Part shown: piece by piece, positions 44,443 through 47,342 of the stretch | How positions within the stretch are numbered: position 1 is the first letter of the stretch | Layout: each line of letters opens with the position of its first letter | Source: Streptacidiphilus pinicola | Lineage (GTDB): Bacteria > Actinomycetota > Actinomycetes > Streptomycetales > Streptomycetaceae | Length of the DNA stretch: 64,000 nucleotides | Assembly: GCF_003258295.1 (NCBI RefSeq) | Contig: NZ_QKYN01000086.1 | Location: 1 to 64,000, forward strand | Direction of reading: 5' to 3' | Notes under the pieces: generated by a model | What the model was told of the DNA's origin: nothing | Seen by the model: the letters and a program-made list of their open reading frames with translations, nothing else | Databases searched by the model: none | Translations under genes and position numbers: made by a program

Positions 44443-44982
44443 TCAGGTGCGTACGGCTTCGAGTGTGCGCGGAGCTTCGTCGTCCATCTCGAAGGCCAGC
44501 GGGAACGGCGCGCGCCCCGCGAGACGGAAGAGCCGCACGATCCGGTGTCGTCGCACGGCGCGCGCCGCGCGCACCGAGTCGTTGTGGAACCGCCGCGCCA
44601 TGGGCACGCGCCGGGCGGCCTCGCCCAGTTCCACGAGCGCGTCCGTCCCGCCCGGCAGCGAGGCGAGTTCGTCCACTTGCTCCTGCTCCCTGAAGACCGC
44701 GCGCAGCGCCTGCGAGAGCTCACTCTCGGCGATCTCCCGCGCGTCGTCCTGCGCGGTGCGGGCCGCGTGCGCGGCCTGGTACAGCAGGATCGACGCGGCC
44801 GGGTCCAGCATCGTCGACGTCGCCAGCTCCAGGGCGCCCGAGGCGCGCCGCAACAGCGCCGCGTCCAACGCGGCTCGCGCGGCGTCGATCCGCGCGTGCA
44901 GCCGGTCGAGCCGCCCGGCGGTCCAGCTCAGGTACACCCCGAAGGCGACAACGACAACGCCGATCCAGATCCATGTGCTCAC
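44443..44982 (-). CDS. LemA-like single-pass membrane protein
   Basis: A 179-aa protein. One N-terminal transmembrane helix (WIWIGVVVVAFGVYLSW) is followed by a long alpha-helical region (TAGRLDRLHARIDAARAALDAALLRRASGALELA), the topology of LemA-family proteins. Classic LemA signature (NxLVxLRNRVxNAWAQIDVQLKRR) is not clearly matched, so I call it LemA-like only. The GTG at 44982 keeps the hydrophobic helix at the start. Neighbours are the peptide importer and the HTH-citrate synthase; no functional link is evident. Confidence 0.55.
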   Translation of the reverse strand: MSTWIWIGVVVVAFGVYLSWTAGRLDRLHARIDAARAALDAALLRRASGALELATSTMLDPAASILLYQAAHAARTAQDDAREIAESELSQALRAVFREQEQVDELASLPGGTDALVELGEAARRVPMARRFHNDSVRAARAVRRHRIVRLFRLAGRAPFPLAFEMDDEAPRTLEAVRT

Positions 44983-45015
44983 AGGGTGTGACCCTATCGG
45001 GAGCGCGAGTGGCAA

Positions 45016-45047
45016 CCTCCAGGGGCGCGAGGCTCGCGCCCCCGAGG
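45016..45047. repeat. Dispersed palindromic repeat, short copy
   Basis: CCAGGGGCGCGAGGCTCGCG followed by CCCCCGAGGG has the core of the dispersed repeat fused to its own inverse, giving a compact hairpin in the 93-bp gap between the citrate-synthase-like gene (ends 45076) and the membrane-protein gene. It may act as a terminator. Confidence 0.6.
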
Positions 45048-45075
45048 GGAGTGCAGCTGCCACGCCTGCCCAAGG

Positions 45076-46278
45076 TCAGCCACGGGCGCCGGTGTACACC
45101 CCGGAGGGGCGGTGGCGGAGGGGAGGGGCCGCGTACTCCTCGAGGGCGTGGGCGAGCCAGCCCGCCGTGCGGGAGAGGGCGAAGATGGTTTCCTCCGCGT
45201 CCGGGGGGAAGGCGGCGAGCTCGGTGAGGAGGGCGAGGGCGAGGTCGCTGTTGGGGAAGGTGCCGAAGCGGTCGCGGGCGACCGCGATGAGGTCGGTGCA
45301 GGCGGCGCGGAGGCCGCGGGGGTCCGGGAGGGGGTCGAGGAGGCGCAACAGCGTGTCCGCGCGCGGGTCGCGGGCGCGGTAGAGGACGTGGCCGAAGCCC
45401 GGGACGGCGCCGGTCTCGCGCAGCGTCGTGGCGAGCGCCGTGACGGGGTCGGTCTCGTGCGCCCGCACGAGCACGCCGCGGGCACGGGCGCCCGCGCCCC
45501 CGTGCAGGGGGCCGTCGAGCACGGCGAGCCCCGCGGTGACGACGGCGTACGGGTTGGCGCGCGTCGACGCGGCGAGGCGGGCCGCGTACGTGGAGGTGGC
45601 CATGTCGTGGTCGGCGAGCAGGATCAGCGCGGCGTCCAGCGCGCGCAGCGCGTCCGCGCTCGGGGCGTCCGCGCCGAGCCGGGCCCAGAGGCGCTCCGCC
45701 ACCGACTCCCCTCCCGCGGCGCGGCGTTCCGGCACCGCGGCCAGCAGCGCGCCGATCAGCGCGCGGCCGGTGGCGACGACGCTGTCGGGCCGCAGGTCGA
45801 GGCTGAGCGGGTCGGCCACGGACGCGGCCAGCACCGCGGCCTTGAACCGGTCGACCGCCCGCGCGGAGGCGGGCAGCGCGTCGGCGCAGGCGCGTACGGT
45901 CTCGGCCAGGCGGGCGGGCGGCGGTGCGAAACGAGCGTCGGGCTCGTCCCGGCCGGTCCACAGCCACACCGCCGTGGCCTCGAAGGTCGACCGCTGGGCC
46001 AACTCCGCGGCGTCCAGGCCGCGGTAGCGGAGCCGGTCGTCCTCCAGCAGGGTCAGCCCGGTGCGGATCGCGGGGCCGGCGGCGGCCGGCTCGGCCGGAG
46101 CTCCGCCGCGCCCGGCGGCGTTGCGCTCGGCGAGGGCCTCGACGTCGGCGGCGGCGAAGAGGCTGCCCTTGCCGTCCGCGGCCCGCACGCGGGTGATCAG
46201 GCCGCGGCTGACGTAGGCGTACAGCGTCTGCGGCTTCACCCCCAGCCGCTCCGCGGCCTCCTGCGTGGTCAGCATCAT
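45076..46278 (-). CDS. Citrate-synthase-like enzyme with an N-terminal DNA-binding HTH
   Basis: A 400-aa fusion. Residues 1-30 form a MerR/excisionase-like HTH (LTTQEAAERLGVKPQTLYAYVSRGLI) and are linked to a citrate-synthase domain from about residue 75. The catalytic residues are present: His259 (PLHGGAG), His297 (GFGHVLYRARDPRA) and Asp345 (FPNSDLAL), so it is probably an active citrate or methylcitrate synthase, though diverged and about 40 aa shorter than typical enzymes. Such HTH-citrate synthases occur in Streptomyces beside or instead of a second copy; none is adjacent here. ATG 46278 (or 46275). The promoter region is shared with a divergent DUF2332 gene and contains a palindrome. 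Confidence 0.85.
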   Translation of the reverse strand: MMLTTQEAAERLGVKPQTLYAYVSRGLITRVRAADGKGSLFAAADVEALAERNAAGRGGAPAEPAAAGPAIRTGLTLLEDDRLRYRGLDAAELAQRSTFEATAVWLWTGRDEPDARFAPPPARLAETVRACADALPASARAVDRFKAAVLAASVADPLSLDLRPDSVVATGRALIGALLAAVPERRAAGGESVAERLWARLGADAPSADALRALDAALILLADHDMATSTYAARLAASTRANPYAVVTAGLAVLDGPLHGGAGARARGVLVRAHETDPVTALATTLRETGAVPGFGHVLYRARDPRADTLLRLLDPLPDPRGLRAACTDLIAVARDRFGTFPNSDLALALLTELAAFPPDAEETIFALSRTAGWLAHALEEYAAPPLRHRPSGVYTGARG

Positions 46279-46300
46279 CGCCCGGGCACCCCACCGTACA

Positions 46301-46317
46301 TTGATTGACTCGATCAA
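46301..46317. promoter_or_regulatory. Palindrome and TTGACA in the divergent promoter of the citrate-synthase-like and DUF2332 genes
   Basis: TTGATTGACTCGATCAA has perfect 5-bp arms (TTGAT/ATCAA) and additional symmetry. TTGACA follows at 46320-46325 on the plus strand. On the minus strand TTGTCA (46325-46320) lies about 17 bp upstream of CAATGT, a possible promoter for the citrate-synthase-like gene. The palindrome would then lie in that promoter's spacer. Candidate site for autoregulation by the HTH of the enzyme. Confidence 0.5.
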
Positions 46318-46355
46318 CATTGACAACTATGGACGGCCGCGTCGAGATTGGCAAT

Positions 46356-47342
46356 ATGACCGCTACAGAGACCGCCGAGGCGTACCGCGTCTTCGGGACC
46401 GTGCACACCAAGGGCCACTCCCCCGCCTACGAGCGGGTCGGCGTGGCCGTCGCCGACTCGGCCGAGCTGCTGGAACGGCTGGTGGCGCTGCCGCCCGTCA
46501 AGCGGCAGCCGAACCTGCTGCTGGCGGCCGTGCGGTACCTGGACGGCCCGGTCGACTCCGGCGAGGCCTTCGTCGGGTGGGCGCTCGCGCACTGGGAGCA
46601 GGTGCGGGCGGTGATCCTGGCCCACGCCACGCAGACCAACGAGGCGGGACGCTGCGCGACCCTGCTGCCGCTGCTCGCGGCGCTGCCGCAGCCCCTGGCG
46701 CTGATCGAGGTGGGGGCCTCGGCAGGGCTCTGCCTCTACCCGGACCGTTACCGGTACCGCTACGACGACACGCCCGCGTTCGGCGCGGCCGAAAGCCCGG
46801 TGACGGCCGTCTGCGCGACCACCGGGCCCGTCCCGTTCCCCGCGCCGGACCGGATGCCGCAGGTGGTCTCCCGCGCCGGCGTCGACCTGAACCCGCTCGA
46901 CCCGGCCGACGCCGACGACGCGCGCTGGCTGGAGAGCCTGGTCTGGCCCGGCCAGCAGACCCGCCTGGACCGGCTGCGCGCCGCGCTGACGGTGGCCCGG
47001 ACCGAGCCGGAGCCGGCCCGGATCGTGCGCGGGGACCTCAATGAACGGATCGCCGAGCTGGTGGCGGGCGCGCCGAAGGGCGCGACGCCGGTGGTCTTCC
47101 ACACCGCTGTGCTCTGCTACCTGCCGCCGGAGGCCCGCCGCGCCTTCACCACCGCGATGCGGGAGCTGCCGTGCCGCTGGATATCCAACGAGGCGCCCGA
47201 CGTCCTGCCCGAGATCGACGCCCGGCTGCCCTGCCCGGCCCCGACCGATCGCGGCGTCAACATCCTTGCCCTGGACGGCGAGCCGGTCGCCTTCACCGGC
47301 CCGCACGGCGAGCGCCTCGACTGGTTCGCCCAGGCCCGCTGA
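46356..47342 (+). CDS. DUF2332-family protein
   Basis: A 328-aa protein of the DUF2332 family. GHSPAYERVGVAVADSAELLERLVALP and LIEVGASAGLCLYPDRYRYRYDD are characteristic; the second resembles an S-adenosylmethionine-binding loop (ExGxSxGL), so a methyltransferase-like fold is likely but unproven. I take ATG 46356 (MTATETAEAYRVFG); ATG 46329 would add nine residues and neither has a good ribosome site. Divergent from the citrate-synthase-like gene, 7 bp from the convergent pimA stop. Confidence 0.75.
   Translation: MTATETAEAYRVFGTVHTKGHSPAYERVGVAVADSAELLERLVALPPVKRQPNLLLAAVRYLDGPVDSGEAFVGWALAHWEQVRAVILAHATQTNEAGRCATLLPLLAALPQPLALIEVGASAGLCLYPDRYRYRYDDTPAFGAAESPVTAVCATTGPVPFPAPDRMPQVVSRAGVDLNPLDPADADDARWLESLVWPGQQTRLDRLRAALTVARTEPEPARIVRGDLNERIAELVAGAPKGATPVVFHTAVLCYLPPEARRAFTTAMRELPCRWISNEAPDVLPEIDARLPCPAPTDRGVNILALDGEPVAFTGPHGERLDWFAQAR

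Follow-up and report, generated by a model that had tools for sequence, protein, structure and literature searches.

A gene for a citrate synthase with an N-terminal helix-turn-helix (HTH), referred to below as the fusion gene, lies on the minus strand of a 64,000-nucleotide stretch of the Streptacidiphilus pinicola genome (contig NZ_QKYN01000086.1, positions 1 to 64,000; hereafter, the window). It is divergent from a gene for a DUF2332 protein, and the 77-bp gap between the two genes, measured to the likely DUF2332 start (ATG 46356), contains a conserved site that is a candidate operator for the fusion protein. The features of this locus, in positions of the window, are as follows.

45076..46278, minus strand: HTH-citrate synthase fusion gene, 400 amino acids (open reading frame list, Pfam and NCBIfam profiles, comparison with relatives)
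46120..46278, minus strand: winged HTH of the HTH_17/MerR/excisionase type, residues 1-53 (profiles and AlphaFold model)
45127..46068, minus strand: citrate synthase domain PF00285, residues 71-384 (profile, AlphaFold and Foldseek)
45502..45504, minus strand: codon of catalytic His259, His in 122/122 relatives
45388..45390, minus strand: codon of catalytic His297, His in 122/122 relatives
45244..45246, minus strand: codon of catalytic Asp345, Asp in 122/122 relatives
46301..46323, minus strand: proposed operator TCAATGTTGATCGAGTCAATCAA, comprising the core TCAATGTTGA (46323-46314) and a second half-site ATCAA (conservation)
46301..46317, no strand assigned: palindrome TTGATTGACTCGATCAA of an earlier note on this DNA, part of the proposed operator (pattern search)
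46326..46354, minus strand: predicted fusion-gene promoter TTGCCA-17-CATAGT (promoter scan and Streptacidiphilus alignment)
46356..47342, plus strand: divergent DUF2332 gene (PF10094), likely start ATG 46356 (Pfam, 260.7 bits)

The open reading frame (ORF) of the fusion gene spans 45076-46326 on the minus strand, and the conserved protein start within it is the ATG at 46278 (MMLTTQEAAERLGVKPQTLYAYVSRG). In agreement with the earlier note (hereafter, the original prediction), which had described an HTH joined to a citrate synthase domain, Pfam matches above cut-off were obtained to HTH_17 (residues 2-53, 3.5e-9, 37.2 bits against a cut-off of 27), MerR PF00376 (1.2e-6, 28.7 bits against 28.2) and Citrate_synt PF00285 (residues 71-384, 6e-58, 197 bits against 27), and a further match above cut-off to the excisionase HTH TIGR01764 (29.7 bits against 28.8), while the Pfam score for PF13411 (21.2 bits) fell slightly below its cut-off of 21.6. 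Citrate and methylcitrate synthases in the PDB matched the fusion protein both by sequence and by fold, and enzymes of these two kinds accounted for all fifty matches listed by Foldseek, with identities of 21-28% among the matches listed. In an AlphaFold model of the protein (mean predicted local distance difference test score, pLDDT, of 75, from a shallow 8-row alignment), the HTH part, with helices at residues 5-12, 16-24 and 43-55 and strands at residues 30-32 and 39-42, was joined to the citrate synthase domain by a poorly ordered linker (residues 56-85, pLDDT below 50).

Conservation of the active site was evident from an alignment of 122 distinct fusion proteins, restricted to full-coverage, stop-free matches. 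Thus, His224, His259, His297, Arg306, Asp345 and Arg370 were identical in all 122 proteins and Arg390 in 121, with one gap; by the E. coli and pig enzymes, we take these seven residues to be the catalytic His-His-Asp and an oxaloacetate-binding His with three Arg. The three catalytic residues that had been reported as intact, His259, His297 and Asp345, are indeed so, and the numbering agrees given the start at ATG 46278. This conservation argues against a decayed enzyme and suggests that DNA binding by the fusion protein may respond to oxaloacetate or acyl-coenzyme A (acyl-CoA). A DNA-bound sensor that binds either ligand without useful turnover, i.e., a pseudo-enzyme regulator like those of the MocR/GabR type, would fit the low identity to solved citrate synthases noted above, the NCBIfam citrate synthase scores, which are well under what these models require (for TIGR01800, 140 bits where the cut-off is 421), and the presence of two more citrate synthases in the source genome. 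We regard this as a serious possibility but lean against it, since all three catalytic residues were invariant in addition to the ligand-binding ones, and relaxed selection on catalysis should have led to the loss of some.

The palindrome had been placed between the fusion and DUF2332 genes and was found there, at 46301-46317; TTGATTGACTCGATCAA, with up to 3 mismatches allowed, occurred at one place in the window compared with 0.01 matches expected by shuffling. A bare 5+5 dyad is unremarkable, the 64 kb containing 2306 dyads with 5-bp arms and spacers of 0-12, and the significance of the palindrome thus derives from its conservation rather than from its being a dyad. Comparison of the promoters of distinct relatives indicated a larger conserved site of which the palindrome is a part, namely TGTCAAYRTTGAT followed by ATCAAT, with the invariant core TCAAYRTTGA; aligned on this core, the element reads TG-TCAAYRTTGA-TT-G-AATCAATRT. 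Of 123 distinct fusion promoters, 112 carried the exact core no further than 250 bp from the start and 4 more a one-mismatch form, compared with an exact core in 2 of 1494 other 250-bp windows from the same loci. Among relatives with less than 47% identity, the lowest in the set being 36%, 29 of 34 promoters carried the exact core. The core was also noted in each of eleven further promoters picked because they failed a strict form of the pattern, and the enlarged set, in which ten of these eleven were counted, had the exact core upstream in 122 of 133 distinct promoters (the 1494 control windows belong to the 123-promoter count and were not recounted for the 133). Thus, the core is retained in orthologous promoters far beyond Streptacidiphilus, and the original prediction survived a comparison that could have refuted it. 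The promoter sets drop rows with less than 250 bp upstream or without the HTH segment and loci of 1500 bases or less, with duplicates merged; the promoters are a non-random sample, in which the best-scoring loci came first and others, exceptions included, were picked by hand, and the relatedness of the genomes means that the counts do not represent independent events. The distance from the core to the second half-site varies: the next TCAA started 5 bp after the core in 68 of 112 promoters, with other spacings of 0, 1, 4, 6-9, 15-16 and 31. In five Streptacidiphilus promoters the conserved second half was ATCAATRTA, and this is the half used by the palindrome, TTGAT-N7-ATCAA.

A close association of the strict site with the fusion gene was evident from a survey of 394 Streptomycetaceae genomes. 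Thus, the fusion gene was detected in 221 genomes (E <= 1e-60), while 180 contained the strict site, of which 171 had one match and nine had two; in G141, G267, G367 and G402 the two strict matches were one palindromic place read on both strands, and the reversed strict pattern, as a control, gave 0 matches in every genome row. Site and fusion gene occurred together in 175 genomes (i.e., in 175 of the 221 with a fusion gene), the fusion gene alone in 46, the site alone in 5 and neither in 168 (Fisher p = 5e-60, uncorrected for relatedness). Four of the five site-only genomes (G267, G332, G348 and G270) do carry a fusion gene by the site, which brings the association to 179 of 180 strict-site genomes, and the fifth, G061, has two sites, both inside long polyketide synthase (PKS)-like ORFs. 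These two sites and the C3 site of G335, between MarR-like and MFS-like ORFs, were judged by eye to be unrelated. The E <= 1e-60 cut undercounts the fusion gene, as genes with inserts are missed; fusion genes at loci L096, L097, L098, L154, L155, L157 and L158 escaped it, apparently through extra residues. Of the 46 fusion genomes without a strict site, 34 were read; in 28 of the 34 the exact core was present and the difference lay in spacing or flank, while of the other six, G345 had a one-mismatch form, G344 had the site with the divergent partner gene and G021, G082, G302 and G414 had none. Of 14 Streptacidiphilus genomes, five contained the fusion gene, and the site was found in none of those without it; a looser pattern matched each of the five fusion promoters and one other place (G008), compared with one match for the reversed control (G007). 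The genome-wide strict-site counts, together with the counts in promoters and control windows, rule out chance as the origin of the palindrome. What would be looked for in an autoregulated divergent regulator, a conserved operator in the shared intergenic region that is tied to the regulator, was thus found at this locus.

Operator-like sites far from the fusion gene were noted upstream of a gene for a CaiB/BaiF family III CoA-transferase in G215 (L161:2037-2066; PF02515, 172 bits for the protein) and G353 (L093:2836-2870). In a survey of loci from the best 30 of 75 matching genomes, plus G215 and G353, TTGA-Y-N3-R-TCAA palindromes were present near the CoA-transferase start in 9 of the 10 closest orthologues from fusion-gene genomes (not G097), a variant of the palindrome was present in 2 of 3 orthologues where no fusion gene was detected (G145 and G067, not G109), and no such palindrome was present in the other 19 loci. 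These results do no more than suggest that, in a single group of Streptomyces, the CoA-transferase gene may be another target. A loose pattern search of the source genome revealed no second target.

The position of the site relative to promoter sequences differed from that predicted. A scan that accepts spacers of 16-18 nt only found a single minus-strand sigma-70-like pair, TTGCCA-17-CATAGT at 46354-46326 (1 found, against a mean of 0.0 in shuffles), of which TTGCCA was identical in five aligned Streptacidiphilus and the second hexamer was CATAGT or AATAGT. The palindrome, which had been assigned to a promoter spacer, lies instead just downstream of the -10 of this only promoter-like pair found, and an alternative pairing of TTGTCA with CAATGT, which would place it in the spacer, appeared weak by reading. 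In Streptacidiphilus, 2 bp separate the end of this predicted promoter from the core, and a protein on the site would thus occlude the start of transcription. In 93 of 122 promoters, TGTCAA was present at the core; on the other strand it reads TTGACA, the -35 consensus directed at the partner. Control is more likely to be by repression than by activation, since the operator would lie at the predicted start of the fusion transcript and usually overlaps the TTGACA that points to the partner. The same hexamer would be expected if the site were a promoter element driving both genes and not an operator, but we consider this highly improbable, as the site has dyad symmetry and a second half-site, restriction to about one place per genome is not expected of a promoter element, and similar palindromes occur upstream of the CoA-transferase gene in a Streptomyces group. 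The sequence TACGGTG, which resembles the -10 of a leaderless transcript, was conserved in Streptomyces (e.g., L070-L089) no more than about 10 bp from the fusion ATG.

Differences between lineages were noted in the divergent gene. In most Streptomycetaceae loci read, this gene encodes another citrate synthase, with matches to PF00285 (353 bits) and NF009005 (340 bits against a cut-off of 332). By the cut-offs used, both this partner and the fusion gene were present in 204 of the 394 genomes, the partner only in 12, the fusion gene only in 17 and neither in 161; a recheck of the partner-only genomes other than G071, G200 and G202 showed that all nine have at least the HTH part of a fusion gene beside the partner (the contig of G153 stops shortly beyond it). 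Matches to DUF2332 were found in 21 of 205 fetched loci, all 21 from Streptacidiphilus, and the usual partner citrate synthase was found in none of the 14 Streptacidiphilus genomes (E <= 1e-100), a distribution that rules out DUF2332 as the ancestral partner; DUF2332 is probably a replacement of the partner in Streptacidiphilus. The DUF2332 and fusion genes occurred in exactly the same 5 of the 14 genomes and were probably gained or lost together in this genus. In Actinomadura and in G058, G429 and G456, the neighbour was an HMGL-like protein; for that of G058, NifV homocitrate synthase was closest, yet the match was below cut-off (248 of 463 bits). At the loci where this type of protein was noted opposite the fusion gene (L026, L027 and L028 of Actinomadura, L103, L134 and L151), it resembles NifV/LeuA and may be a Re-type citrate synthase. 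In a different family (f27), a citrate synthase-like ORF was present in 13 of 15 loci (three were tested, all PF00285, 380-407 bits), the exceptions being G542 and G742 (L141 and L146), which had a small cupin-domain ORF as neighbour and retained the core. The divergent neighbour was a citrate synthase in G446, and in G778 (L135:2-1450) it was a citrate synthase with two CBS-domain stretches, beside a one-mismatch site. The G778 partner thus appears as a second sensory fusion within the same gene pair. The fusion gene and the site remain constant while the partner genes change between lineages, which makes the fusion protein the best candidate reader of the site; the fusion gene was also the sole gene seen in common between the lineages compared.

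Loci in which the two genes have been separated, or in which the partner is missing, were also informative. Thus, in G344 (L113) the partner lies 2.4 kb away, with a site beside it and none at the fusion gene, whereas in G112 (L091 and L110) the partner lies about 20 kb away and both partner and fusion gene have a site. In the latter genome a remnant of about 40 partner residues was noted beside the fusion gene, and there were two partner matches, the second of which was not located. Two partner remnants in G330 (L090) each retained the site. The site was missing from G021, G302, G414 and G082, four genomes that gave no partner match, and neither the core nor a recognised divergent partner was present in the 1.5 kb read of G489. 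The association of the site with the divergent partner is no looser than that with the start of the fusion gene, and these split and partnerless loci suggest that selection has acted more on control of the partner than on strict autoregulation; the divergent partner is probably the main conserved target. Contrary to this pattern, the site was present where no partner was detected in Streptacidiphilus and, by the genome-wide searches, in G130, G295, G331, G349 and G352. Downstream of the fusion gene in the window, a small ORF (44443-45063, minus strand) gave a weak LemA-like match (17.5 bits, cut-off 26.2).

In the available text of PMC12323332, SCO5831 (citA3) and SCO5832 (citA4) of Streptomyces coelicolor are described as putative citrate synthases around one intergenic region, with an MtrA site (TTGACTTAACTGTCCA) between them, a shift of the intergenic probe in an electrophoretic mobility shift assay, and increased expression of both genes late in growth in an mtrA mutant. 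The SCO5832/SCO5831 pair shares an intergenic region as do the citrate synthase gene pairs in most Streptomycetaceae loci here, Streptacidiphilus having DUF2332 where S. coelicolor has citA3, and this gene arrangement suggests that SCO5832 may be the HTH fusion; both proteins are treated as citrate synthases in PMC12323332, the available main text of which is without the term 'helix-turn-helix'. The abundance of SCO5831 is mentioned in the part of PMC9739823 available. The binding of MtrA to the intergenic probe and its effect on both genes would be expected if a third regulator (MtrA, GlnR or another factor) were the reader of the site, with the HTH of the citrate synthase doing something else or being a relic. 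We consider this unlikely for several reasons. The reported MtrA site resembles another conserved Streptomyces element, TTGATTCGACTGTCCA, which is separate from the core and ends a median of 18 bp from it (46 sites scanned); in Streptomyces intergenic regions (e.g., L070-L089), this second conserved element lies near the partner gene and was also noted as TTGATTCGACTGTCCATGCTTGACT. The argument is less strong than an outright absence would make it, as in Streptacidiphilus the only piece of the MtrA-like element recognisable by eye, GTCCATAGTTG, abuts the core. A general regulator would have many sites, whereas strict matches number about one per genome and, among the genomes searched, were confined to those with a fusion gene apart from the matches inside PKS-like ORFs in G061, and it is the fusion gene alone that was seen to be common to the lineages compared.

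Considered together, these results make it likely, in our view, that the fusion protein is an enzyme-derived transcription factor that acts on a dedicated operator and controls its own gene and the divergent gene, with occupancy of the active site probably altering its binding. In the mechanism proposed, the protein, a citrate synthase to whose N terminus a winged HTH is joined by a flexible linker, would bind TGTCAAYRTTGAT and, at a short variable distance, ATCAAT in the divergent promoter, and would thereby control its own gene and, mainly, the divergent gene, i.e., that of a second citrate synthase in most Streptomycetaceae, of a NifV/LeuA-like protein in Actinomadura and a few other genomes or of DUF2332 in Streptacidiphilus. 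As a dimer, the citrate synthase would carry two flexibly linked HTHs, in keeping with half-sites whose spacing varies. The closure of citrate synthases over oxaloacetate provides a plausible way for a ligand to alter DNA binding, and oxaloacetate and/or acyl-CoA in the intact active site probably has this effect. Several observations weigh against this proposal. The varying distance of the second half-site is unusual for a rigid dimer. In seven of 123 promoters, no core with at most one mismatch was present in the 250 bp examined (that of G270 is 289 bp upstream, in G344 it is with the partner, and in G021, G302, G414, G082 and G489 there is none), and autoregulation is therefore not universal. 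The only strict site of G215 is at the CoA-transferase gene, its fusion promoter having the core only; the published MtrA site lies in the same S. coelicolor intergenic region (available text of PMC12323332); and fusion gene and partner are nearly always together in Streptomycetaceae, so that co-occurrence alone cannot name the reader of the site. The original prediction that the protein would control its own transcription and that of the DUF2332 gene thus appears well supported as regards autoregulation plus control of a divergent gene, from a conserved and near-unique site that tracks the fusion gene, and requires amendment in that DUF2332 would be the target in Streptacidiphilus only and autoregulation would not extend to every locus.

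More tentatively, and with less confidence than we attach to the regulator itself, the locus may represent a switch that is widespread among actinobacteria, with a working citrate synthase as the transcription factor and occupancy of its active site by oxaloacetate and acetyl- or propionyl-CoA setting the level of a second, dispensable condensing enzyme. The partner would have been swapped (citrate synthases, one with CBS domains, NifV/LeuA-like proteins or DUF2332) with sensor and operator unchanged, and the CoA-transferase would have been recruited in one Streptomyces group. Citrate synthase sets entry into the tricarboxylic acid cycle, and such a switch, if real, would provide a one-protein link between acetyl-CoA and oxaloacetate supply and gene expression in antibiotic-producing bacteria. 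If citA4 encodes the fusion protein, there would also be a function for an annotated isoform and an explanation of the divergent pairing.

A citrate synthase that acts outside its enzymatic role has been described in Caulobacter (available text of PMC7083601). Among the titles and openings of abstracts found in the open-access literature available, none concerned an HTH-citrate synthase regulator or its operator, and as far as that literature shows, the protein is a widely conserved but unstudied variant among enzyme-fold regulators. In MocR, GabR and PdxR, a winged HTH is fused to a complete metabolic-enzyme fold and the gene is often divergent from the regulated gene; these proteins combine an aminotransferase fold with a GntR-type HTH, whereas the present one combines a citrate synthase fold, with invariant catalytic residues, and a MerR/excisionase-type HTH. 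PutA and BirA are trigger enzymes, in which one protein is both enzyme and transcription factor, but they involve other enzymes and other DNA-binding folds, and here the dual role is a predicted one. The HTH of the fusion protein is of the same type as those of the MerR family, BldC and excisionase. The effector domain of MerR-type proteins is absent, the remainder of the protein being the citrate synthase domain, through the fold of which dimerisation presumably occurs. Operators of the MerR family are typically located within a long promoter spacer of 19-20 bp; the pair found here, by a scan limited to spacers of 16-18 nt, has a 17-bp spacer, and the palindrome lies downstream of this pair.

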